Assembly (NCBI RefSeq): GCF_019396385.1
Contig: NZ_JAHKRN010000040.1
Span: forward strand, 1 to 64,000
Direction of reading: 5' to 3'
DNA from: Nonomuraea harbinensis
GTDB taxonomy: Bacteria; Actinomycetota; Actinomycetes; Streptosporangiales; Streptosporangiaceae
Length of the DNA stretch: 64,000 nucleotides
How positions within the stretch are numbered: position 1 is the stretch's first letter; each line of letters opens with the position of its first letter. A program made the translations under genes and the position numbers. Below are positions 41-13,803 of this stretch, piece by piece. Below the pieces are notes generated by a model, which saw only the letters and a program-made list of their open reading frames with translations, was not told the DNA's origin and did no database searches.

Positions 41-847
41 TCACGAGCAGCCCTCGAACTGCGGCACCGCGACCGTGCCGAAGTCCAGGCCGGTGCCGCC
101 GAACCACTCGCGCAGCAGCTTGGCGGCGGTCCCGTCCTGGTACATGTCGGTGATCGCCCGGTTGACCTCTTCGCATCCGGCCACGTCTCCCCGGCGCATG
201 CCGATGCCGGTCCGCTGCTCGTTGAACTGGGCGTTGGCCAGGCGCAGCCCGCCGCCGTCCTGCTTGGCCAGCCCGGCCAGGATGACGTCGTTGGTGGTGA
301 TGGCGTCCACCTGGTTCTGCTTCAGCGCCACCATGCACGCCTGGTAGTCGGGGAACGGCTTGACCTCCGCCGCCACCCCGCGCTCCTCGACCACCCGCTG
401 GGCCGCGTTCGCGCCCTCCACCTCGCAGATGCGCCGGCCCCGCAGGTCGCGCACGTCCTTGATCCGGCTCTCGTCGGGCCGGATCAGGATGTCCTGGTAG
501 GAGATGTGGTACGGGCCCGCGAACAGCACCTTCTGCTTGCGGTCCTCACTGATCGTGTACGTGGCCACGACCAGGTCGGCCTCGCCGGAGAGCACCGCGT
601 CCTCACGCTCGGCGGCCAGCACCGGGATCAGCCGGTAGTCCTTGCCGAGCCGCTCGGCGACGTAGGCGGCCACGTCGACGTCGAAGCCCTCGAACCCGTT
701 GCCCTTCCTGAACCCCACCGACGGCAGGTCGGGCCGGACGCCGATGACGATCTCGTCCTTGTCGAGCATGGACTCGGGCGTTCCGGCGCCGCATCCGGCG
801 GCCACCAGCGCGACCGCCGCGAGCATCACGATCATCAGCCGCTTCAA
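41..847 (-). CDS. glnH: GlnH-like glutamate/aspartate-binding lipoprotein
   Basis: Extracytoplasmic solute-binding protein of family 3, 268 aa. A lipoprotein signal (lipobox LVAAGC, Cys19) anchors it outside the membrane. A single bilobed amino-acid-binding domain follows, with the typical opening IVIGVRPDLPSVGF and a GFDVDVAAYVAERLG segment. The TTG start at 847 overlaps the upstream TGA as TTGA and has a GAGGGAG ribosome-binding site, so it is preferred over a longer GTG-initiated frame. It is the last gene of a seven-gene kinase operon, directly after a GlnX-like gene, as in mycobacteria where GlnH, GlnX and PknG form an amino-acid sensing pathway. No ABC permease or ATPase lies nearby. 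A sensor role is therefore more likely than transport, though this is inference. Confidence 0.88.
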   Translation of the reverse strand: MKRLMIVMLAAVALVAAGCGAGTPESMLDKDEIVIGVRPDLPSVGFRKGNGFEGFDVDVAAYVAERLGKDYRLIPVLAAEREDAVLSGEADLVVATYTISEDRKQKVLFAGPYHISYQDILIRPDESRIKDVRDLRGRRICEVEGANAAQRVVEERGVAAEVKPFPDYQACMVALKQNQVDAITTNDVILAGLAKQDGGGLRLANAQFNEQRTGIGMRRGDVAGCEEVNRAITDMYQDGTAAKLLREWFGGTGLDFGTVAVPQFEGCS

Positions 848-2232
848 CGGTACTCCCTCAGTCGTGGCCACACGCCCAGGGCCAGCAGCACGCCGATGCC
901 GCCCATGGCGAACGGCAGCACGGTCCACAGCTCGTCCAGCGCCCGCTCGCCGCGGTCGACCGCCGAGGCGAAGACGCTCTGCTTGCGCTCGGCCACCTTC
1001 ACGAGCTCCTCGTCGTACGTCGCGAACGCCTGCCGCACCTCGCCGAGCCTGATCGCGACCGCCTCACCGGTGCGGCCCGTGGCCGCCCGCGCGCGCATCA
1101 GGCTGTCGGCCTCCTGGTAGCGGAGGTAGGCGTCGAGCACGGGCTCGGCGGTCGCGCCGGCGAGCTCGGGGCCCAGCATGCCCCGGAAGTCCTCGGCCCT
1201 CTGCACCGCGGTCTGGTACTTCGCCAGGCTCCCCGCCTCGACGTACATCAGCCGCTGCGACTTGTCCAGGAACCGGTGCTCGTAGGTGTCGGCCCGCTCC
1301 TTGTCCAGCAGGAAGCGGCTCTGGTCGCCCTGCATGCTGTTGCCGATGGCGCGGGCCCTGGCCAGCGTCACCACCGAGTCGAAGCCTTCGAACTTGGCCG
1401 TCCGCAGGAAGTCGATGTCCCGCTGGATCACGCTCAGCCCGGCCGCCATCGCGCCGGCGGTCGCCAGGGTGGCGCCGACGAGCGCGAGCCCGAGCACCCG
1501 GCGGAACCGCCGGGCCAGGTACACCTGCAGGTACAGCAGGCACCCGAGCGCGAGCAGCCCGGCCACGATCACCGCGGCCCGCACCAGCGGCAGCATCCCG
1601 GCCGTGTCGTCGTAGGTGCGGCGCACGATGGTGCCGCTCTCCAGCGTCAGGTTGTAGGCCTGCGGCAGCAGCACCTGGCGCATCAGGTCGGTGGCGTCCC
1701 GGTAGACCCCCAGGACCGAGGCCGGCGGGTCCCCGGCGGCGTGACTGGACTGGCTGTCGAGCAACAGCGCCCGCGCGACCAACTGCTCGTAGCGGCCCAG
1801 CCCGTCCAGCACGGACTGGATGGTACGGCGCTCCGCCTGGTCGTCGCCGGCCAGCTGGAACGCCTCCAGCAGCGCCAGGTTGGCGGCCGAGCGCTGCTGC
1901 TCGTACCGCGCGAGGGCCTTGGCCCTGAGTCCTCCGTCCTCGGGGCCCATCACCAGCACGTCGGCGATCAGCGCGTCCATGTCGCTCAGCCCGAAGTACA
2001 GGCCGGAGGTGGCGACCACCTGGGGGCCGGCGTCGCGGCCGATGACGCGCAGGCCGTCGCCCGCGGTGGTGCCGCCGGCGGCGACGGCGGCGAACAGCAG
2101 CGCGAGCGCCGCGGCCGCCACCCCGGTGAGCACCCGGACCCTGCCGGGCACGCTGCGCGCGGCCCGCCGCCTGACCGGAGGCGCGGCCTGGCGCGGGGCG
2201 GGCGGCGCGGGTGAGATCGGTGTCACCGTCAA
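844..2232 (-). CDS. glnX: GlnX-like four-helix membrane signalling protein
   Basis: Integral membrane protein of 462 aa. A proline-rich cytoplasmic N-terminus leads to TM1 (about residues 35-55). A long extracytoplasmic segment follows, then a central TM pair around LPLVRAAVIVAGLLALGCLL and VLGLALVGATLATAG, a second extracytoplasmic helical segment, and a last TM before a short Arg-rich tail. This resembles GlnX, which in mycobacteria relays the state of GlnH to PknG. The chosen TTG start (2232) overlaps the FHA gene stop as TTGA and follows GGGAGG. An in-frame GTG two codons later is an alternative. Four-base overlaps on both sides imply translational coupling with the FHA and glnH genes. 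Identity rests on topology plus context, because sequence conservation in this family is low. Confidence 0.8.
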   Translation of the reverse strand: MTVTPISPAPPAPRQAAPPVRRRAARSVPGRVRVLTGVAAAALALLFAAVAAGGTTAGDGLRVIGRDAGPQVVATSGLYFGLSDMDALIADVLVMGPEDGGLRAKALARYEQQRSAANLALLEAFQLAGDDQAERRTIQSVLDGLGRYEQLVARALLLDSQSSHAAGDPPASVLGVYRDATDLMRQVLLPQAYNLTLESGTIVRRTYDDTAGMLPLVRAAVIVAGLLALGCLLYLQVYLARRFRRVLGLALVGATLATAGAMAAGLSVIQRDIDFLRTAKFEGFDSVVTLARARAIGNSMQGDQSRFLLDKERADTYEHRFLDKSQRLMYVEAGSLAKYQTAVQRAEDFRGMLGPELAGATAEPVLDAYLRYQEADSLMRARAATGRTGEAVAIRLGEVRQAFATYDEELVKVAERKQSVFASAVDRGERALDELWTVLPFAMGGIGVLLALGVWPRLREYR

Positions 2233-2864
2233 GGCGTGCCCTCCCTGATCGTGATCACGGTCCACGCGCCGAGGTGGATGCGGTCGCCCGGCCCCACCGG
2301 GACCGGCACGTTCACCGTGACGGGCTTGCCGTTGACCTGGGTGCCGTTCGCCGAGCCCGGGTCGACCAGCATCCAGGTCCCGCCGGGCGTGGCCAGCAGC
2401 ACCGCGTGCAGGCCCGACACGCCCGGATCGGTCGGCGGCCCGGCCAGATCGATCTCGGGCGTCAGGTCACGGCCCCTGCGGCTGCGCCCGATGCGCACCT
2501 GCTCGCCGATGAGCGGGAACGAGCGTTCCGGGCAGTACGGGGGGAAGGCCATGGCTGCGGCGTCCGGGCCGTTCTGGGCGATGACCTGGTCGTAGTAGGC
2601 GCGGTCGGCGGCGGTCACCGCCTCCCAGCGGGCCCCGGCCACCGAGGTCTGCGCGGGCAGCGCGCCGCCGTCGAAGGAGTGGCCGCACACCTCGCAGAAC
2701 TGGCCGACGCGCGGGGTGGCGCAGATCGGGCAGCTCTCCGCCGGCCGCGACCCCTGGGGCTGGGACGGGGCCGGCTGCTGCGGGGCGGGCGCGGACATCT
2801 GCGTCCCGCACACGTCGCAGTAGTCGTCGGTGCTCGACGCGTGCCCCTGCGGGCAGGTCGCCAT
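2229..2864 (-). CDS. double zinc-ribbon FHA-domain protein
   Basis: Phosphothreonine reader of 211 aa. Two short zinc ribbons come first (C4...C16-x2-C19 and C45-x2-C48...C57-x2-C60), separated by a Pro/Gln linker. A C-terminal FHA domain (about 120-208) shows the hallmark residues R127 in IGRS, S150 and H153 in SGLHA, and N173-G174 in SANGTQVNG. It sits between the VWA gene (TGATG junction at 2864) and the glnX-like gene. In other actinobacteria PknG acts on the FHA proteins GarA/OdhI to control 2-oxoglutarate metabolism. This protein is not GarA: it lacks the short phosphorylatable N-terminus and carries zinc ribbons instead. It may be a PknG substrate or adaptor, which is inference. Confidence 0.88.
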   Translation of the reverse strand: MATCPQGHASSTDDYCDVCGTQMSAPAPQQPAPSQPQGSRPAESCPICATPRVGQFCEVCGHSFDGGALPAQTSVAGARWEAVTAADRAYYDQVIAQNGPDAAAMAFPPYCPERSFPLIGEQVRIGRSRRGRDLTPEIDLAGPPTDPGVSGLHAVLLATPGGTWMLVDPGSANGTQVNGKPVTVNVPVPVGPGDRIHLGAWTVITIREGTP

Positions 2865-4147
2865 CAGCTGCCCTCCGTCCTGCGGAGCCTGCTCGTGCGT
2901 ACGGAGCCGGTGTCCAGCTCCAGTTCGTCGGCCTTGTCGACGTTCGTGACCAGCCGGGCGGTGCCCTGGACGGGATCGACCTCGACCACCTTGTCCAGCA
3001 GCCGCGCGGTGTCCTCGCGGCCCGAGTCGGCGGCGATCTTCCTGGCCTTGGCCAGGCGGGCGGTGGCGGCCTCCACGTTGCCGGCCGCGCGGTCGCTCAG
3101 CCCGTCCTGGATCAGCTGGTGCAGCTCGGCCTGGCCGGTGTAGTGGATGACCTTGGGGTTGATCCGGGTGGACTGGGCCAGGTCGTCGGTCCACTGGGCG
3201 AGCACGTTGCCCGAGGCCAGCACCTCGTCCGTGTCGGGCCGCACCAGTTTCACCCATCCGGCCCTGATCTCCTGGCCGATCTGGCCGGGGGCGACCTCCA
3301 CGCACAGGTGGTACTCGCGCTCCTCCTGACCCCACGAGCCGGTCGGGTAGTCGCCGGTCATCGGGTTGACGTCGGCGCGCTTGCCGGTCAGGTCGAGCAG
3401 CGTGGGCGAGACCTGCTTGACGAACTTGAGCGTGGCGGTCTGCGGCACCCACACGCGCAGCGACAGGTCGGGCACGGTCTTGGCCATCGCCGTCTGGGTG
3501 ATCCGGCGGAAGAACTCGGCCAGCTCGTGCTGGTTCCTGACGAACTCGAAGCTGCCGAGCAGCGCCTCCGACACCATGCGGAGCTGGGCGGGCACCCAGT
3601 CCGCGCCGACGCCGAGGCTGTCGCAGACGAACTTGCCGCTCCAGGCCCGCAGCACCTGTTGGAACGTCTCCTCGCGCTCGTTGTTCTGGCCGTCGGTCAT
3701 GAGGAGGGCGTGCCGGACCGCGTTCGGATGCGCCGACAGCAGGTGGCCGGCCAGGTTGAGCCACTCGCCCATCGCGGTGCCGCCGCGCGCGGTCAGCCTG
3801 GAGATGGCCTGCTGCGCCTCGGCCCGGGTCGCCGGGGTGGCCCGGACCAGGCCGTGGCCGTGCGGGTAGACCACCTTGGCCGTCGAGGTGCCGGAGACCA
3901 CCGCGAAGTACGCTCCGTCGCGCAGCGTCTCCACGGCCGTGGCGGCGGCCGTCCGGGCGTCACGGATCTTGCTGCCGCTCATCGAGCCCGACGTGTCCAC
4001 GATGATCACTTCGGCGGCCTCGGCGGCGGTCTCCGCCACGGCCTGGCCGGTGGAGCCGATCGTGAGGATGGCGTGCACCTCCCGGCCGTCCACCGAGAGG
4101 AATTTGTTCTGGTCGATCTGCAAGGTGAAGGTGGGCTGGTCACCCAT
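2864..4147 (-). CDS. von Willebrand factor A domain protein
   Basis: Cytoplasmic VWA protein of 427 aa. The N-terminal half holds the VWA fold with an intact MIDAS metal site: D51-T-S53-G-S55, a GGTAMGEW loop and the MTDGQNN strand. A beta-rich middle (about 240-330) follows, then a C-terminal helical stretch with an acidic/basic alternation that resembles a TPR-like scaffold. No signal peptide or TM segment is visible. The ATG at 4147 overlaps the phosphatase stop by 8 bases, and its own TGA overlaps the FHA start as TGATG. VWA proteins usually mediate metal-dependent protein-protein contacts. Here it is likely a scaffold for the kinase, phosphatase and FHA proteins, but its partner is unknown. 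Confidence 0.88.
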   Translation of the reverse strand: MGDQPTFTLQIDQNKFLSVDGREVHAILTIGSTGQAVAETAAEAAEVIIVDTSGSMSGSKIRDARTAAATAVETLRDGAYFAVVSGTSTAKVVYPHGHGLVRATPATRAEAQQAISRLTARGGTAMGEWLNLAGHLLSAHPNAVRHALLMTDGQNNEREETFQQVLRAWSGKFVCDSLGVGADWVPAQLRMVSEALLGSFEFVRNQHELAEFFRRITQTAMAKTVPDLSLRVWVPQTATLKFVKQVSPTLLDLTGKRADVNPMTGDYPTGSWGQEEREYHLCVEVAPGQIGQEIRAGWVKLVRPDTDEVLASGNVLAQWTDDLAQSTRINPKVIHYTGQAELHQLIQDGLSDRAAGNVEAATARLAKARKIAADSGREDTARLLDKVVEVDPVQGTARLVTNVDKADELELDTGSVRTSRLRRTEGS

Positions 4148-5321
4148 GCGTGCCTCCTAGAGGGATCAAGGCGATGGTCACGTTGTCGTGGCCGCCGGAG
4201 TCGAGCGCGTGGCGCAGCATCTGGCGGGCCTGGTCGAGCGGGGTTCCCTCGGTGGGGAAGCGGTAGCCGGCGAGGTAGCGCCACAGCCCGTCGCTGCACA
4301 CCAGCAGCAGGCCGGGTCCCGGCGGCGTGAAGACGCGCGTACGGGGGCGCACGTCGGGGTAGTCGGCCCCGAGCCAGGCGGTGATCTCCCCGGTGGGCGC
4401 GACGTCGTCCTCGGTGAGCAGCGTCCCCTCCCGCCGCACGCCCCCGTCGGCGGGGACGTCGGCGAGCCAGTACGCGCGGGTGTCGCCCGCCCAGCAGAGC
4501 GTGATCTCGCCGGGGCGCGCCACCGCGGCCACGTACGTACAGGCCGGAGCATGGTCGGGGGAGCCGGCGAGCTTGCCGACCGCCAGGCCGGCCAGCCCGA
4601 ACGCCTCCTCATGCGGCCGCCCCTCCGCCAGCGCCGCCGCTGCCGCCGCCACAGCCGCTGCCGCCGCCTCATCAGCCCGCGGCGAACTCCCCACCCCATC
4701 ACAGACCACAGCGATCGTCCCCGAACCGACCGCCCCCAACGGGACCGCCCCACCTGCTGGAGTCACGCTGGGAGGAAACGTCCCTGACGGGACTGTCCCC
4801 GCCGCGCCGGAAGTGGCCGTGCCCGACGGGACCGGCCTGCCTGCTGAGGTCGCGCCGGGAGGAGGGAAAGTGTCCGCCGGGTCTGCCGGGGTCGCGCCGG
4901 GAGGCGTCCCTAGCGGGACAGCCCTCGCCGCGCGGGGAGGGGGTGTCTCTGGCGGGATTGTCCCGCCTGTTCGGGGCGGGCCGGGTGGGGGTGTTCTTGG
5001 GGCTGATGTGGTTACCGGGATGGTGGTCGCTTCTGGTGGGATCGGGTTCGGCGGGGGTGGGGTGAGCGTTAGCAGGGTTACCGCGTCCTCGTTGCGGGCG
5101 CGGCGCAGGCCGCGGTCCGTGACGGCGGCGGCGCCGTGGGGGAGGACGGACTCGGCATGGTCCCTGGCCGTGGGCTGGCGCACGCCGCAGCGTTCGCAGT
5201 AGCCCTCCGCGTCCACGGCGGCGGCGCCGCAGGACACGCAGGAGGGGGAGGCGAGCGGGTGGCCGCAGGCTTCGCAGAAGGAGTCGCCCCGGGCCACGGG
5301 CGCCTCGCACAGCGGGCACAT
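4140..5321 (-). CDS. zinc-ribbon PP2C-family Ser/Thr phosphatase with a large insertion
   Basis: PP2C/PPM phosphatase of 393 aa, presumably reversing the neighbouring kinase. Two zinc ribbons open the protein (C2-x2-C5...C16-x2-C19 and C28-x2-C31...C42-x2-C45). PP2C motif 1 is TDRGLRRARNEDA (68-80). Motif 2 is CDGVGS (207-212), then come WAGDTRAYW, LVCSDGLWRY and a C-terminal GGHDNVT, so the metal-binding Asp residues are present. Between motifs 1 and 2, where PP2C enzymes normally have some 15 residues, lies about 115 residues of Pro/Thr/Gly/Ala-rich sequence. It is built from degenerate repeats such as VPSGT and TPPGAT. The ATG at 5321 overlaps the kinase stop (TGATG). Confidence 0.9.
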   Translation of the reverse strand: MCPLCEAPVARGDSFCEACGHPLASPSCVSCGAAAVDAEGYCERCGVRQPTARDHAESVLPHGAAAVTDRGLRRARNEDAVTLLTLTPPPPNPIPPEATTIPVTTSAPRTPPPGPPRTGGTIPPETPPPRAARAVPLGTPPGATPADPADTFPPPGATSAGRPVPSGTATSGAAGTVPSGTFPPSVTPAGGAVPLGAVGSGTIAVVCDGVGSSPRADEAAAAAVAAAAAALAEGRPHEEAFGLAGLAVGKLAGSPDHAPACTYVAAVARPGEITLCWAGDTRAYWLADVPADGGVRREGTLLTEDDVAPTGEITAWLGADYPDVRPRTRVFTPPGPGLLLVCSDGLWRYLAGYRFPTEGTPLDQARQMLRHALDSGGHDNVTIALIPLGGTHG

Positions 5322-7507
5322 CACAGCCACGTCCGGGGCCGGACGGTGTTGGCCAGGTCGACCAGCGCGTACCGTTCCTGCCGCGAGGACGCCGCGCCGG
5401 CGAGCTCGCGGTAGATCGACTCCAGCCGCCCGCGCACGCCCCGCTCCGTGAAGGGGGTGTCCGCAACCCGCGCGCCGGGCGCCGGCTGGTTGCCGTCGAG
5501 CCAGGTGAGCGCGGCACGCAGGATCTCGGCCGTCAGTCGCTTGCGGCGGCGCGGGTCGAGGTCGGCCAGCTTGCCCAGGCGGTCGGCGGCGGCGGTCAGC
5601 TCGCTGGGGTGCAGCGCCCGCGGGTCCCGCCGGGCGGCGGCGGCCACCAGCGCGAGCTGCGCGGCCACCCGGTGACTGGAGGACGCCGGCACCTCGTCGA
5701 GCACCGCCGTCCGGCCCGTCCTGGCCAGCCCGAAGGCGGCGCTGACGTAGGCGTGGTCGGTCCGCCACACGCTCTCGTACCAGGGGACCGGATCGCGACC
5801 TGCGAGCTCCAGCGCGAAGCCGAGCGCGAGCTTGGGCGCCCGCTCTCCCGGCATCATCGACACGCACCGGTCGAACGACCTCACCGCGAGATCGGGGTCG
5901 CGGACGGCGAGCCCGGCCACGCCGCGGTACCAGGTGACGCGCCAGTCGCCCGGCAGTGCCCGGTCCAGGTCGTCGAGCATGTCCCGTACTCCCGCGAGGC
6001 CGTCCTCCGCCGCCAGTCTGGCCAGCGTCAGCCGGGTCTCCGGCGTCTCCGGCATGGCCCCCACCTGGGCGGCCAGCTCGTGCGGGTGGCTGCCGGCCAG
6101 CCCGGCCAGCGCCCCGGCCGCGGGGTCGGCGGGGTCGGCCAGCGGCACGGGCAGCGACGTCACCGCCGCCATCGGGTCCAGCGCGTCGAACACCCGCTGC
6201 GGGTCGTCGGACAGCGCCCTGCCCACCGCGTCCCGCTCGGGCCCGAACAGCGCGGACGGCGCCGGGTACGGCACGCCGTCCTCCAGCGCGGAGATCTCGC
6301 GCAGCACGCCGACGAGCTGCTCCTCCATCTCCTGCGCGCTGTGGAACCTGGCGGCCGGGTCCGGGTCGGTGGCGCGGCGCAGCAGCCGGGCGAACGACTC
6401 GTGGCCGCAGTCGTCCGGCAGCGGCGCGGCCACCCCGCCCCTGGTGGGGCTGAACCCGGGGACGGCCAGCGCCGCCAGGGTCCTGGCCACCGTGTAGAGG
6501 TCGGAGGCGACGGACGACGGCTGGGTGTCCAGCTCGGGCGCGTGGTAACCGGTCGTCACCCAGGAGGACCCGGGCGGCGAGCCGACGCGCTGCACCGCGC
6601 CCAGGTCGATGAGCTTGAGCCGCCTGCCGACCCGGATCACGTTGGCCGGCTTGAGATCGCAGTAGACCAGGTCGTGCTCGTGCAGGTAGGCGAACGCGCG
6701 CAGGATCTCACGCCCGTACATGAGCGTCTCCCGCAGCGGCAGCGGGCCCTGGCCGCGCAGCTCGTGCAGCGACTGGCCGCCGACGTACTCCATGACGATG
6801 TAGCCGAGGCCGCCGGAGCGCTGGAAGTTGAAGATCTTGACGATGTTCGGGTGGTCGACCATCGTCAGGAAGCGCCGCTCGGCCTCCGCCGCCGCGAGCG
6901 CCTCGGCGTCGGCGGTGTTGAGCAGGCCCTTCAGGACCATCCAGCGGCCGTCCAGGTTCTCGTCGGAGGCCAGGTAGATCCAGCCGAGGCCGCCGTGGGC
7001 CAGGCAGCCGAGCACCCGGTACTGGCCGCCCACCAGGTCGCCCTTGGCCAGCTTGGGAGAGAAGGAGTACGGCGTCCGGCAGTGCGGGCAGAACCCGTCG
7101 GTGCGGCCTGGCCGCCCGTCCACCGACCGGCCGACCGGCTTGCCGCAGTCGAGCTTGGCGCAGAACCGCTTGTTCTCCGGCACTTGAGGGTCGGACTGCA
7201 CCGCGGTCGCGGGGTCGCGGTACGGCACGGACGGCAGATCGGCGATCTCCGCGAGCACACCGGCGCGCGACCGGCCGCTGCTCATCGGCCCCGACACGCC
7301 CCTGCTGGAGGGCCCCGTCCCGCGTACGGGCCGGGTGACGCCGGCGGGCTGCGACACGGCCGGGTGCCCGGTCCACACCCCGACCGAGCCCTCCGCCGGG
7401 CCGCTCGCCTGCGCGGCCACCGGGGGTGAGACGGCGGCGTGACCGCACAGGTCGCAGTAACCCTCGTCGATCGTGCCCGTGCAGCCGGGCTGCGCGCACG
7501 ACGTCAT
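5321..7507 (-). CDS. pknG: PknG-type serine/threonine protein kinase
   Basis: Soluble kinase of 728 aa, close to the roughly 750 aa of mycobacterial PknG. An extra N-terminal zinc ribbon (C4, C9, C18, C21) is followed by a disordered region and a rubredoxin-like Cys pair (C116/C121 and C140/C143). The kinase domain spans about 155-420: Lys193 in MVLKGL, the PknG-type catalytic loop YCDLKPAN (D284, replacing HRD) and DLG (D301) instead of DFG. The C-terminal 300 residues are helical repeats like the TPR domain of PknG. The ATG at 7507 overlaps the upstream stop as ATGA, and the gene is followed immediately by the PP2C gene. In actinobacteria PknG links amino-acid availability to central metabolism through FHA proteins, and the FHA, glnX and glnH genes downstream fit that role. 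Confidence 0.93.
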   Translation of the reverse strand: MTSCAQPGCTGTIDEGYCDLCGHAAVSPPVAAQASGPAEGSVGVWTGHPAVSQPAGVTRPVRGTGPSSRGVSGPMSSGRSRAGVLAEIADLPSVPYRDPATAVQSDPQVPENKRFCAKLDCGKPVGRSVDGRPGRTDGFCPHCRTPYSFSPKLAKGDLVGGQYRVLGCLAHGGLGWIYLASDENLDGRWMVLKGLLNTADAEALAAAEAERRFLTMVDHPNIVKIFNFQRSGGLGYIVMEYVGGQSLHELRGQGPLPLRETLMYGREILRAFAYLHEHDLVYCDLKPANVIRVGRRLKLIDLGAVQRVGSPPGSSWVTTGYHAPELDTQPSSVASDLYTVARTLAALAVPGFSPTRGGVAAPLPDDCGHESFARLLRRATDPDPAARFHSAQEMEEQLVGVLREISALEDGVPYPAPSALFGPERDAVGRALSDDPQRVFDALDPMAAVTSLPVPLADPADPAAGALAGLAGSHPHELAAQVGAMPETPETRLTLARLAAEDGLAGVRDMLDDLDRALPGDWRVTWYRGVAGLAVRDPDLAVRSFDRCVSMMPGERAPKLALGFALELAGRDPVPWYESVWRTDHAYVSAAFGLARTGRTAVLDEVPASSSHRVAAQLALVAAAARRDPRALHPSELTAAADRLGKLADLDPRRRKRLTAEILRAALTWLDGNQPAPGARVADTPFTERGVRGRLESIYRELAGAASSRQERYALVDLANTVRPRTWL

Positions 7508-8691
7508 CGCCCACCTCCGTTGATGGCCCGCTTGTACTCGTCGACGGCCGCGGCCGCCCTCGTCAGGTCGCACGGCGAGCTCCACAGCAGCAGCCGCGCC
7601 CGCTCGTACAGCCGCATCGCGGCCGGATCCTCGACCATGCCGGTGCGCGCGGCCTTGGCCTGGCAGGCGCCGAGCAGGCCGCGCAGCTCGTCGCGCCTGT
7701 TCAGCAGCCCGCGCAGCGCCCGCGCTGCCGCCCCCGCCTTCGCCTCGGCCTCCTCGGCCTGTCGCTCCAGCACCGTGAGCCGTCTGGCCCGCTCCAGCCA
7801 CGAGCCGGCCGAGGCGTCCAACGCCGCCAGCGCGGCCTCCAGCTCCGGCACGCCGCTCCTGGGCTGCGCCTGCGGCGGCAGCGCTATCTTGACGACGACG
7901 GCGCCGTGCGCCAGCCGCGCCTCGCTCTCGGCCGCCCGTACGAGGTCGAGCGCCGCCTTCAGGTTCTCCCTGCGCGCGCCGTACTCGTCCTTGACCGTCA
8001 GCGCCTGCTCCAGGTCGGCGCGGACGTTCTCCAGGTGGCGGACCAGCGTGTCGAGCTCCTGCTTGACGTGTCCCGATCCGAGCGGGTCCGCCAGCACGGC
8101 GGCGCGCAGGCGGGTCAGGTCGGCGTCCTGGCGGGTCAGGTCGACCGGCTCGCCCAGCCGGCTGCCCAGCTCGCGCGCCCCGGCGAGCGCGGCGGCGGCC
8201 GAGTCCACCCGGGGGAGCAGCGCCGACCAGACGGAGTCGATCTCGGTGAGCGCGTCGGTGGCGAGCTGGAAGGCCGCGTCCATCCGCAGGACGGTCTCGT
8301 CCAGGGTCAGCCGCTCCTCCACCGGGGGAAGCAGGGAGCGCTGCTCGACGGGCTTGGCCGGCGCCTTCAGCAGCACCGACCGGCCCGACAGCAACGCGGT
8401 CAGCGCCTCCAGCTGCTCGCCGCCGAGCCGGGACCGCTCGGCCCTGACCTGCTCCGCGTCGCGCAGCACCCCCCGGTACGCGTCGTACAGGGACCAGAGC
8501 CTGGCCAGCGCGGCCTGCGCCTCCTCCCAGCGGAGCCGGGTCGCGTCGCGTAAGGAGGCGCCCTTGAGTAACTGGTAGGTCGTGTGCGACTCCAGATCGA
8601 GCAGGTCGCCCGAGATGCGGTCACGCTCGGCCGCCCTCGCGCGCAGCGCGTGCTCGGCGCCTTCTCTGCTCATGGGTGGGCCCTGGCTCAT
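7504..8691 (-). CDS. coiled-coil protein, first gene of the pknG operon
   Basis: Unrecognised 395-aa protein, predicted soluble and almost entirely alpha-helical, with Leu/Ala/Glu/Arg heptad patterns over most of its length (for example LERQAEEAEAKAGAAARALR). There is no signal peptide, zinc ribbon or enzymatic motif. The ATG at 8691 is preferred; GTG at 8694 and ATG at 8673 are alternatives. It heads the operon and overlaps pknG as ATGA, so it is made with the kinase. A structural or regulatory partner role is plausible, but nothing in the sequence proves it. Confidence 0.8.
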   Translation of the reverse strand: MSQGPPMSREGAEHALRARAAERDRISGDLLDLESHTTYQLLKGASLRDATRLRWEEAQAALARLWSLYDAYRGVLRDAEQVRAERSRLGGEQLEALTALLSGRSVLLKAPAKPVEQRSLLPPVEERLTLDETVLRMDAAFQLATDALTEIDSVWSALLPRVDSAAAALAGARELGSRLGEPVDLTRQDADLTRLRAAVLADPLGSGHVKQELDTLVRHLENVRADLEQALTVKDEYGARRENLKAALDLVRAAESEARLAHGAVVVKIALPPQAQPRSGVPELEAALAALDASAGSWLERARRLTVLERQAEEAEAKAGAAARALRGLLNRRDELRGLLGACQAKAARTGMVEDPAAMRLYERARLLLWSSPCDLTRAAAAVDEYKRAINGGGR

Positions 8692-11427: not shown

Positions 11428-12312
11428 TCAGGGCCTGCACCTGATGTTGAGGCACTGGGCCGGGTTGCCGTTGCCGCTGGCACGGTTGCCGCCACCGTCG
11501 GTGACCCCTCGTTCGGCTCGGATGCCGAAGTCGTCGTTGTTGCGTGCGCGGTTGTCCCTGATCACGGTGGCCGCATCGGTCGCGGTGACGTTGATGCCGC
11601 TTCCCCCGTCGTTGCCCTGGCCATTGCCGTTGGCGTCGTTGTCGTCGATGAGGGTGGCGGTCGAACTGACCGTGACGAAGATGCCCGTGCCCCTGTTGTT
11701 CACCACGCTGTTGCGGTGGAGCACGGTCCTTGTGCTCGCCGTGACGACGATTCCTTCATCGCTGCTGTTGAGGGCGGCGTTGCGCTCGACGCGTGCGTTG
11801 GTGACGGACTCGATAAAAATCCCAAAACGGGCGCTGTCGGTGGCGCTGTCACTGATATGCGGGCGATCCACGTCCCGGGCGACGATCCCGGCGCCGCCGT
11901 TGTCGGTGGCGAGAATGTTCCGGACGTGGTTGCGGTCAGCCCCATCCCCGAGACTGACCCCCGCCCCGAATTCGGTGACGGTGCCGTTCTTGATGGTCAC
12001 TCCGGAGTGACCGGTGCGGGACGATCCCTCCGGGGTGTTGTCGATCCCGCTGAAGGGCAGGGCGCTCCCGCTGCCGTCGATGGTGTGGCCGTTGAGATCG
12101 ATGGTGATGTTGCGCGCGCCGACTTCCAGCCCTATGCCGCGGCAGTCGTGCAGGTCGTTGGCCAGCTTGATGGATCTGGTGATGACCTGTCCGCAGGTCA
12201 CGGTGGTCTCGCCTCTGTGGTGGCCGTCCTGCGCCGCCCAAGCGGCCATCGGCAGGGCGCAGGCGAGCAGAATGCCCCCCAGGCCGCCGACGAGCAGAGT
12301 TTTTGCATACAT
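11428..12312 (-). CDS. secreted right-handed parallel beta-helix protein
   Basis: 294 aa with a Sec signal peptide (MYAKTLLVGGLGGILLACALPMAAWA, cleavage near AWA-AQ). The mature part is made of repeating coils with N-ladders and the PbH1/NosD pattern: NITIDLNGHTIDGSG, VTIKNGTVTEFGAGVSL, GAGIVARDV, FGIFIESVTNARVERN, GIFVTVSSTATLIDDN, GINVTATDAATVIRDN. Two Cys pairs flank the helix. Such folds are pectate-lyase-like, but no lyase active site is recognisable, so binding or surface roles are equally possible. The ATG at 12312 is chosen because GGGGGAA precedes it; a GTG 7 codons upstream lacks this. Stands alone, divergent from the NOS gene. Confidence 0.85.
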   Translation of the reverse strand: MYAKTLLVGGLGGILLACALPMAAWAAQDGHHRGETTVTCGQVITRSIKLANDLHDCRGIGLEVGARNITIDLNGHTIDGSGSALPFSGIDNTPEGSSRTGHSGVTIKNGTVTEFGAGVSLGDGADRNHVRNILATDNGGAGIVARDVDRPHISDSATDSARFGIFIESVTNARVERNAALNSSDEGIVVTASTRTVLHRNSVVNNRGTGIFVTVSSTATLIDDNDANGNGQGNDGGSGINVTATDAATVIRDNRARNNDDFGIRAERGVTDGGGNRASGNGNPAQCLNIRCRP

Positions 12313-12642
12313 GAGATTCCCCCATAAGGACACAGATTAGTTCTGTGGCACAAATATCCTCCCACTCGGGTGAAGGGCTCAAACTCTGGGTGAATTGCAC
12401 AGCATTACGAGCTAGAGGAACGTAACGGCTTTAATTATTACAATAGAGATAATGTACGCTATATCGCTTCTAACAGAACAAATAGGGCATATGCGCCTCA
12501 CGCTGCCCACTTTCCTGTTTTGCCGGACAGAACCGGTACCGACGGGTCAGGATGAAAGCTGCCGCGGACAAGCCGTCACGGCGGTGCGGAGAGGGCGCCG
12601 CCACCAGGACGTACTGCCGGCCCGGAACCGGCAGGGCGATCC
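12313..12642. other. AT-rich divergent intergenic region (330 bp)
   Basis: No convincing gene. It separates the beta-helix gene from the NOS gene and contains an island (about 12420-12500) with roughly two-thirds A+T over 12421-12480, striking in this GC-rich window. It should hold two divergent promoters. Close to the NOS start lies a small inverted repeat, TGCCGG / CCGGCA (12615-12620 and 12628-12633), which could fold over the ribosome-binding region. A 64-codon ORF within it overlaps the NOS start and is not supported. Confidence 0.6.
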
Positions 12643-13803
12643 GTGACCGGAAAAGTGCTGGTTACTGCGTTGCCTACCTGGATCAGAACGCTGCGACCCT
12701 TCGACGCCCTGCCCGTACCGACCCTCATCGAGCGCACCACCGACCATCGCGAGGCCGAGCGCTTCATCAGGCTCTTCCACGAGGAGCACCCGGAAGCCGG
12801 CGACCCGGCCGCGCGGCTGCGGGACGTGGCCAGGGAGATCGCCCGGCGCGGCTCGTACACGCACACCTCCGAGGAACTGGAGTTCGGCGCCCGGGTGGCC
12901 TGGCGCAACAGCAACCGCTGCATCGGCCGGCTGTACTGGAAGTCGCTGAAGGTGCGTGACCGCCGCCGGACCACCAGCGCCGAAGGGGTGGCCCTGGAGT
13001 GCGTGGAGCACCTGCGGGAGGCCACCAACGGCGGCAAGATCAGGCCGGTCATCACCGTGTTCCCGCCCGACCTGCCCGCCCGCAGGGCGCCCCGGGTGCT
13101 GAACGACCAGCTGATCCGCTACGCCGGATACCGCGAACCCGGCGGGTCCGTCGTCGGCGATCCCCGCCACGTCGGCCTCACCGAGCTGGCGACCTCGCTG
13201 GGCTGGCGGGGCGGGGGAGGCCGGTTCGACGTGCTGCCGCTGGTGATCCAGCCGGGGATGGGCGAGCCCCTGCTGTGCAACGTGCCGGGCGACGTGGTGC
13301 TGGAGGTGCCGATCGAGCATCCGGAGTTCCCGTGGTTCGCCGAGCTGGGGCTGCGCTGGCACGCCGTGCCGGCGATCTCCGGCATGTGCCTGGAGATCGG
13401 CGGCGTGTGCTACCCGTGCGCGCCGTTCAACGGCTGGTACATGGGGGCGGAGATCGGCGCCCGCAACCTGGCCGACGCCGACCGCTACGACCAGCTGCCC
13501 GTGGTGGCCGCGCGGCTCGGGCTGGACGTCTCGTCCGAGCGGTCGCTCTGGCGCGACCACGCGCTGGTGGAGCTGAACGTGGCCGTGCTGCACTCGTTCG
13601 AGAAGGCCGGGGTGACGATGACCGACCACCACACCGAGTCCCGCCGGTTCCTCACCCACCTGGCCAGGGAGGAGAAGGCGGGGCGGGTCTGCCCGGCCGA
13701 CTGGTCCTGGATCGTGCCGCCCATCTCGGGCGGCGTCACCCCCGTCTTCCACCGCTACTACGACAACCCCCTGCTCACGCCGAACTTCGTGGCTCGTCAC
13801 TGA
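12643..13803 (+). CDS. nos: bacterial nitric oxide synthase oxygenase
   Basis: 386-aa oxygenase-only NOS that oxidises L-arginine to citrulline and NO with electrons from a cellular reductase. The heme-thiolate Cys is C93 in WRNSNRCIGR. The arginine-anchoring Glu is E270 in FNGWYMGAEIGARN. The substrate/pterin region (GLRWHAVPAISGMCLEIGG, MTDHHTESRRF) and the C-terminal W-S-W-I-V-P-P segment are conserved. There is no reductase domain, as in other bacterial NOS. The GTG start at 12643 gives a length a little above the usual 350-370 aa; the first 20 or so residues may be extra. No thaxtomin or nitration genes are next to it, so it probably serves NO-based signalling or protection rather than secondary metabolism. 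Confidence 0.95.
   Translation: MTGKVLVTALPTWIRTLRPFDALPVPTLIERTTDHREAERFIRLFHEEHPEAGDPAARLRDVAREIARRGSYTHTSEELEFGARVAWRNSNRCIGRLYWKSLKVRDRRRTTSAEGVALECVEHLREATNGGKIRPVITVFPPDLPARRAPRVLNDQLIRYAGYREPGGSVVGDPRHVGLTELATSLGWRGGGGRFDVLPLVIQPGMGEPLLCNVPGDVVLEVPIEHPEFPWFAELGLRWHAVPAISGMCLEIGGVCYPCAPFNGWYMGAEIGARNLADADRYDQLPVVAARLGLDVSSERSLWRDHALVELNVAVLHSFEKAGVTMTDHHTESRRFLTHLAREEKAGRVCPADWSWIVPPISGGVTPVFHRYYDNPLLTPNFVARH

Follow-up and report, generated by a model that had tools for sequence, protein, structure and literature searches.

What does the kinase PknG act upon when its gene shares an operon with genes that the known PknG pathway lacks? The question is raised by the first 64,000 nucleotides of contig NZ_JAHKRN010000040.1 of Nonomuraea harbinensis (RefSeq assembly GCF_019396385.1), hereafter the window, where seven genes encode, in order, a coiled-coil protein, PknG, a PP2C phosphatase, a VWA protein, an FHA protein, and relatives of GlnX and GlnH. 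A PknG-GlnX-GlnH-GarA/OdhI pathway is known from mycobacteria and corynebacteria (PMC6069109, PMC9769921, PMC8546545). The window's organism shares with it a PknG of rubredoxin-kinase-TPR build, linked glnX- and glnH-like genes, and a GarA in the genome, whereas the genes for PP2C, VWA, a zinc-ribbon FHA and the coiled-coil protein are additions. We propose, with a probability of roughly 55%, that the cassette is a self-contained switch: outside the cell GlnH would bind an amino acid, and the membrane protein GlnX would pass the signal on to PknG; the kinase would then phosphorylate the VWA protein on its threonine-bearing C-terminal tail, to which the zinc-ribbon FHA protein would bind and which the PP2C would reset. 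Each phosphorylation, binding and reset step of this proposal is modeled on the archaeal ArnA-ArnB precedent, and the GlnH-GlnX-PknG input on mycobacteria and corynebacteria.

The VWA protein provides the connection to ArnB. It carries the Pfam domains VWA_3 and VWA_3_C, and by structure comparison its predicted model corresponds to ArnB over the full three-domain length, with the vWA domain, the beta-sandwich, the C-terminal helical domain and the metal ion-dependent adhesion site (MIDAS) all in place. In Sulfolobus, the kinase ArnC and the phosphatase PP2A control the binding of the FHA protein ArnA to the phosphorylated, Thr-bearing C-terminus of ArnB (PMC6509490, PMC7472852, PMC12852372). 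The cassette has in common with that system the three-domain VWA protein, an adjacent FHA protein with zinc domains, a Thr-bearing C-terminus, a kinase and a phosphatase as partners, and a link to nutrients. The two nonetheless differ in that the ArnB sites are IETT motifs on the helices of the bundle, whereas the VWA site is a tail that follows the bundle; that ArnA has one zinc finger and the cassette FHA two ribbons; and that kinase, phosphatase and sensor are gathered in one operon only in the cassette. The initial annotation had spoken of a dedicated FHA reader and of scaffold proteins; the likeness of the VWA model to ArnB from end to end points to a specific vWA/FHA switch, in which VWA and FHA would not be loose scaffolds. 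A full-length structural relative, the vWA protein 4FX5 of Catenulispora acidiphila, matches the VWA protein with a template modeling score of 0.93 and 48% identity, but has Val at the position equivalent to Thr413. Its structure has been available since 2012, and the accessible literature on it assigns no function; the available text of a 2026 paper counts the Catenulispora protein among the structural orthologs of ArnB, and places such proteins mostly outside multi-phosphorylation processes (PMC12852372).

A comparable set of parts occurs elsewhere. In type VI secretion, a threonine phosphorylation pathway likewise brings together a kinase, a phosphatase, an FHA reader, envelope sensors and a vWA domain; in that pathway the kinase and the vWA domain make up a single protein, and what is controlled is a secretion machine. 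PpkA has such a vWA domain (PMC1262709).

The tail of the VWA protein was compared across 103 PknG loci, made up of the window, 14 loci found by PknG similarity, 84 stretches with PknG_TPR matches (chosen, not all matches), and four from the cyanobacterial phylum. Families are referred to by our own labels, namely f1 (that of the window), f3 (presumed Streptomyces-type), f4 (presumed Mycobacteriaceae), f8, and f79 (Frankia-like by guess). The tail has the conserved motif L-[DE]-T-x-S-[TV]-x-T; the stretch that holds it reads LELDTGSVRTSR in the window, commonly MTLETRSTKTVR in f3, and MALETRSTKTTR in all but one of the five cyanobacterial-phylum loci. In the 50 loci that have both FHA and PP2C, Leu411, Asp/Glu412 and Thr418 are found in all 50, Ser415 in 49 and Thr413 in 42. 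Where FHA is present and PP2C was undetected, Thr418 is kept in 5/5 and Thr413 in 2/5; where both are missing, the figures fall to 5/8 and 0/8, respectively. One further locus, L020, in which FHA was undetected because an N-gap breaks the gene, keeps both threonines. These counts take in 64 of the 66 loci with a VWA match, the weak L095 and L099 being excluded, and the related loci among them are not independent (46 of the 64 are left under 85% identity). Among all seven cassette proteins, [DE]T.S[TV] occurs once, in the VWA tail; the chance of finding it in 25 residues drawn from the VWA protein is 0.0022, a value to be read knowing that the motif was noticed before the test. The tail motif is similar to ETTSV/ETTST of GarA and to LIETT/SIETT of ArnB, a likeness of short motifs only. 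The reading of the tail as a strict copy of the GarA ETTS site was softened, since the residue that stays constant is Thr418, and not Thr413. A text search of the literature for a printed phosphopeptide of the tail (STKTVR, TRSTKT, ETRSTK) returned unrelated papers only.

The proposed reader adjoins the VWA gene, with which it shares an overlapping stop and start, and its plan of zinc ribbons followed by an FHA domain is that of ArnA; the residues of the phosphothreonine pocket are kept. That this protein might be GarA itself is ruled out by its zinc ribbons, by its lack of a [DE]T.S[TV] motif, and by the presence of GarA elsewhere in the genome (G000:C119:201342-201851). The kinase matches PknG_rubred (PF16919), Pkinase (PF00069) and PknG_TPR (PF16918) above cut-off and the structure 2pzi at 6e-145, and its catalytic Lys193, Asp284 and Asp301 are present in 93/93 other rows compared. 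The phosphatase combines a double zinc ribbon (PF12773) with PP2C_2 (PF13672), and shows the motifs RNED, DGVG, SDG and HDN. Zinc-ribbon-type Cys motifs are shared by PknG, PP2C and FHA, in each case at the N-terminus. In PknG, the ribbon Cys pattern ahead of the rubredoxin domain is found in 55 of the 57 loci with VWA and FHA and in 17 of 32 others, but in none of the 14 f4 copies, so that the window's PknG differs from the mycobacterial type by an extra N-terminal element. Judged from the sequences, this ribbon accompanies the cassette, though not exclusively. In the archaeal system the zinc finger alone promotes ArnAB interaction in the unphosphorylated state (PMC12852372). From architecture, one may guess that the ribbons of PknG, PP2C and FHA are docking parts for the cassette proteins, and likewise that the coiled-coil protein is a scaffold. 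The latter has no match in Pfam; its predicted structure is helical throughout (predicted local distance difference test score 90.7), and a search of PDB structures with this model gave nothing significant (best E 0.084, EzrA). It was also observed that GarA has an N-terminal zinc ribbon in 21/21 f1, 12/12 f3 and 18/18 f79 genomes and in 0/13 f4 genomes (GarA loci L154-L163, L169-L235), which parallels the PknG ribbon.

The initial annotation expected the gene order to be conserved in relatives, and it is indeed widely kept: in 39 of the 103 loci pknG has the full set of six partners around it, in more than one order, and VWA and FHA occur together beside it in 57. Partners were called with rebuilt profiles and a positional filter, which excluded PP2C matches lying inside pknG in other frames and may miss a split PP2C (G412 in f79). 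In f3, all six were found in 13/22 loci, which are the 13 primary copies taken, while the nine second PknG copies have VWA in five and no other partner. As a separate observation, the VWA paired with second PknG copies at L078, L079, L080, L129 and L130 has a C-terminal zinc-ribbon-like Cys pattern and no adjoining FHA gene. The full set was present in 8/18 loci of f1, where several others fall short of one gene and two are cut by contig ends, in 7/21 of f79, and in 0/4 of f8, where only the coiled-coil gene is missing in all four. None of the 14 f4 loci has it; twelve have glnX-glnH-pknG only, and two have neither glnX nor glnH. In named loci, which may share species with the genome collection, the set is complete in 6/7 of Nonomuraea (the seventh is cut by a contig end) and 1/1 each of Pseudonocardia, Actinoplanes and Paractinoplanes, and incomplete in the one locus each from Frankia, from Actinomadura, and from a short contig that bears the title Nocardia aurea. 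It is to be noted that the PknG on this 3294-base contig (L011) groups with Nonomuraea, at 72% to that of the window; the contig may be a contaminant. Outside the class, G169 has all six; among four further genomes (five loci), all six stand together at one locus. The glnX-glnH pair closes the gene order in the family of the window, opens it in f3 and f79, and is encoded on the other strand in Pseudonocardia. A second, long-branched type of PknG was seen in f79 (L118, L120, L122, L124, L133), accompanied only by glnX-glnH, which lie on the opposite strand.

At the level of genomes, PknG_TPR was found above cut-off in 28/296 of the phylum and at E 1e-20 in 87/246 of the class. VWA_3_C occurs at 1e-5 or better in 59/246 class genomes (three weaker matches dropped), 57 of which also have PknG; the remaining two are G295, with a PknG_TPR match of 1.2e-12 about 3 kb from the VWA match, and G308, with none. 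Among the PknG genomes of the class it is present in 57/66 outside f4 versus 0/21 in f4, counts that treat genomes as independent although they are related. Starting from a PknG relative in a metagenome-assembled genome titled Synechococcales (L018), PknG was found in 5/244 genomes of the cyanobacterial phylum, and VWA_3_C in exactly those five (Fisher 1.4e-10, again with genomes counted as independent). Four of the five have the coiled-coil, PP2C, VWA, FHA and GlnX genes with PknG, in L153 in a permuted order; PP2C was undetected in the fifth (G608), and GlnH in all five. Because the order is rearranged across lineages and presence and absence match in another phylum, the grouping of the cassette genes is, as far as genome comparison can tell, far above chance.

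On the input side, GlnX has a full-length match to the family NF058618 (6.8e-73) and scores 37 against the cut-off of 780 for the equivalog NF041460. GlnH has the SBP_bac_3 domain of Pfam, one N-terminal hydrophobic segment, and a lipobox-like LVAAGC seen by eye. When compared with the ligand residues reported for Mycobacterium tuberculosis GlnH (PMC6069109), its Arg147, Thr162 and Arg169 are kept and Ser164 is replaced by Thr. The ligand is likely an amino acid; specificity for aspartate is uncertain.

The classical pathway might nonetheless operate here with helpers, such that PknG acts on GarA as in mycobacteria, and the role of PP2C, VWA, FHA and the coiled-coil protein is limited to tuning, localizing or stabilizing the kinase. 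GarA is in fact present in all actinobacterial genomes searched (12/12 and 67/67, i.e., 79/79, including nine of the 67 that lack a PknG match), and the first Thr of its motif is kept in the window's genome (DTTST), in 12/12 f3 and 13/13 f4 proteins, and in nine of the 21 from f1. This residue is, however, replaced by Gln in 18/18 f79 proteins and, within f1, by Val in seven and Ser in five. Furthermore, the five cyanobacterial-phylum cassette genomes have no GarA match, and four of them also lack the E1 component (PF16870) of 2-oxoglutarate dehydrogenase, the enzyme that PknG controls through GarA in the known pathway; E1 was found in 12/12 actinobacterial genomes. GarA may possibly have been overlooked in one of the five, but is unlikely to have been missed in all. 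For this reason GarA cannot be the only output of PknG, and we consider a purely classical pathway rather unlikely. GarA is probably a second target wherever its first Thr survives, which includes the window's genome, since DTTST is kept there.

Several other observations weigh against the self-contained switch. Thr413 is replaced by Ala in seven and by Met in one of the 50 loci with FHA and PP2C. In the accessible text on ArnB, pairwise Thr-to-Ala mutants had no motility phenotype; two such pairs bound FHA more weakly after short phosphorylation (PMC12852372). By profile, the FHA sequence is no closer to ArnA (3e-5 to 4e-5) than to GarA or OdhI (1e-5 to 5e-5). GlnX, at 246.2 bits, falls just below the cut-off of 250 for its family, and two ligand residues of GlnH are changed (Trp232 to Tyr, Asp250 to Asn). 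With DTTST kept, the classical GarA route is open in the window's genome. Lastly, the f1 genomes G345, G429 and G437 (L084, L088, L089) keep PP2C and FHA with no VWA_3_C match genome-wide, so their FHA must have another partner; the first GarA position is Val in all three, which leaves their PknG output unexplained. Another possible ligand of FHA is autophosphorylated PknG, to which GarA binds in mycobacteria. An adaptor model generalizes this: FHA would bind an autophosphorylated N-terminal linker of PknG, and VWA would be a metal-site effector rather than a substrate, its tail serving as an unphosphorylated contact. Such a model draws on the three genomes with FHA and no VWA, on the Ser/Thr/Arg-rich linkers of cassette PknG proteins, and on the mycobacterial PknG N-terminus, which is autophosphorylated and recruits the FHA domain of GarA (PMC8546545). 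It does not account well for the tail Thr being constant with FHA and PP2C (50/50) but kept in only 5/8 where both are absent, and ArnA-ArnB does operate via such a C-terminus; on balance we regard it as improbable. That the genes are mere neighbors with no common mechanism seems very remote: synteny alone never proves interaction and individual genomes miss partners, but membership is kept while order is rearranged, and the match of presence and absence recurs in a second phylum (5/244).

The direction of change was addressed with a quick tree of 71 PknG proteins, in which the 13 rows from f4 fall together in a single supported clade, adjacent to Pseudonocardia and inside the cassette-bearing lineages, and the cassette state requires at least 11 changes. 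The rows are the 71 of the 103 with at least 450 amino acids and the glycine-loop pattern, a choice by which every second copy of f3 and the majority of the primary copies of f79 dropped out; the tree is midpoint-rooted, and the program warned that the f4-Pseudonocardia join consists of long branches. As the larger set is widespread and the three-gene form is one clade nested among cassette rows, we favor a reduction of the larger cassette in f4. The initial annotation, which had called the present operon an expanded version, thus probably had the direction wrong, subject to the midpoint root. We tentatively go one step further: the founding job of PknG may have been a nutrient-gated vWA/FHA switch of the ArnA-ArnB kind, with the cassette spread across two phyla, and the mycobacterial GlnX-GlnH-PknG-GarA pathway may descend from it by loss of the switch, with GarA retained. 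This is a possibility in which we place less than even trust.

The layout of the locus is given below. Seven overlapping minus-strand genes between 8691 and 41 had been described, and all six junctions are as stated: the coiled-coil stop at 7504 and PknG ATG at 7507 share ATGA; PknG ends and PP2C starts at 5321 (TGATG); the PP2C stop (4140) and VWA ATG (4147) overlap by eight bases; VWA ends and FHA starts at 2864 (TGATG); and the TTG starts of GlnX (2232) and GlnH (847) meet the stops at 2229 and 844 (both TTGA). Because the genes overlap, all seven would be carried on one mRNA. The broader proposal of a PknG-GlnX-GlnH operon with phosphatase, FHA and further partners likewise agrees with the domains and the synteny.

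Table 1. Coordinates of the cassette genes and their elements in the window
Feature	Position	Strand	Basis or remark
Coiled-coil (all-helical) protein, 395 amino acids	7504..8691	-	start maybe 8673 (389 amino acids)
PknG: N-terminal zinc ribbon, rubredoxin domain, kinase, TPR	5321..7507	-	domain matches, kept catalytic residues
Zinc-ribbon-like Cys motif, PknG residues 1-22	7442..7507	-	pattern search
PP2C phosphatase, N-terminal double zinc ribbon	4140..5321	-	PF13672, PF12773
VWA protein, ArnB-like: vWA, beta-sandwich, helical C-terminal domain	2864..4147	-	domain matches, model
VWA tail, residues 409-420, LELDTGSVRTSR; putative phospho-acceptor, Thr413 and Thr418	2888..2923	-	conserved motif
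FHA protein: two N-terminal zinc ribbons, C-terminal FHA domain (2268-2495)	2229..2864	-	domain matches
GlnX-family membrane protein, four hydrophobic segments	844..2232	-	NF058618, just under cut-off
GlnH-like solute-binding protein, N-terminal hydrophobic signal	41..847	-	SBP_bac_3

The later start of the coiled-coil gene is suggested by its homologs, most of which measure 388-389 amino acids among those listed. As the first base of the window is also the first of the contig (G000:C76), nothing past glnH is visible. The nearest named relatives are from Nonomuraea, namely N. ferruginea for VWA (98%) and Nonomuraea species for the coiled-coil protein. A few kb off the cassette lies a bacterial nitric oxide synthase oxygenase (12643-13803, plus strand; NO_synthase, E 6.1e-152), and 11428-12333 on the minus strand encodes a probable right-handed beta-helix protein (Beta_helix 7.8e-23; NosD-like 3.5e-13).

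Neither the seven-gene set nor any link between PknG and ArnB turned up in literature text searches, whose scope left out subscription papers and some preprints, and the cassette appears to be an undescribed, widely conserved variant of the PknG system joined to an ArnA-ArnB-like switch. It bears on the statement about ArnB orthologs cited above (PMC12852372), because here a relative of the Catenulispora protein has genes for a kinase, a phosphatase and a zinc-FHA protein as its neighbors. The accessible papers approach PknG by way of GarA/OdhI, in mycobacteria and corynebacteria, and their accessible text does not mention the extra cassette members. If the VWA tail is indeed a substrate, PknG would have a second output, independent of GarA and 2-oxoglutarate dehydrogenase, and the substrate, its reader and its eraser would all be encoded in one operon.

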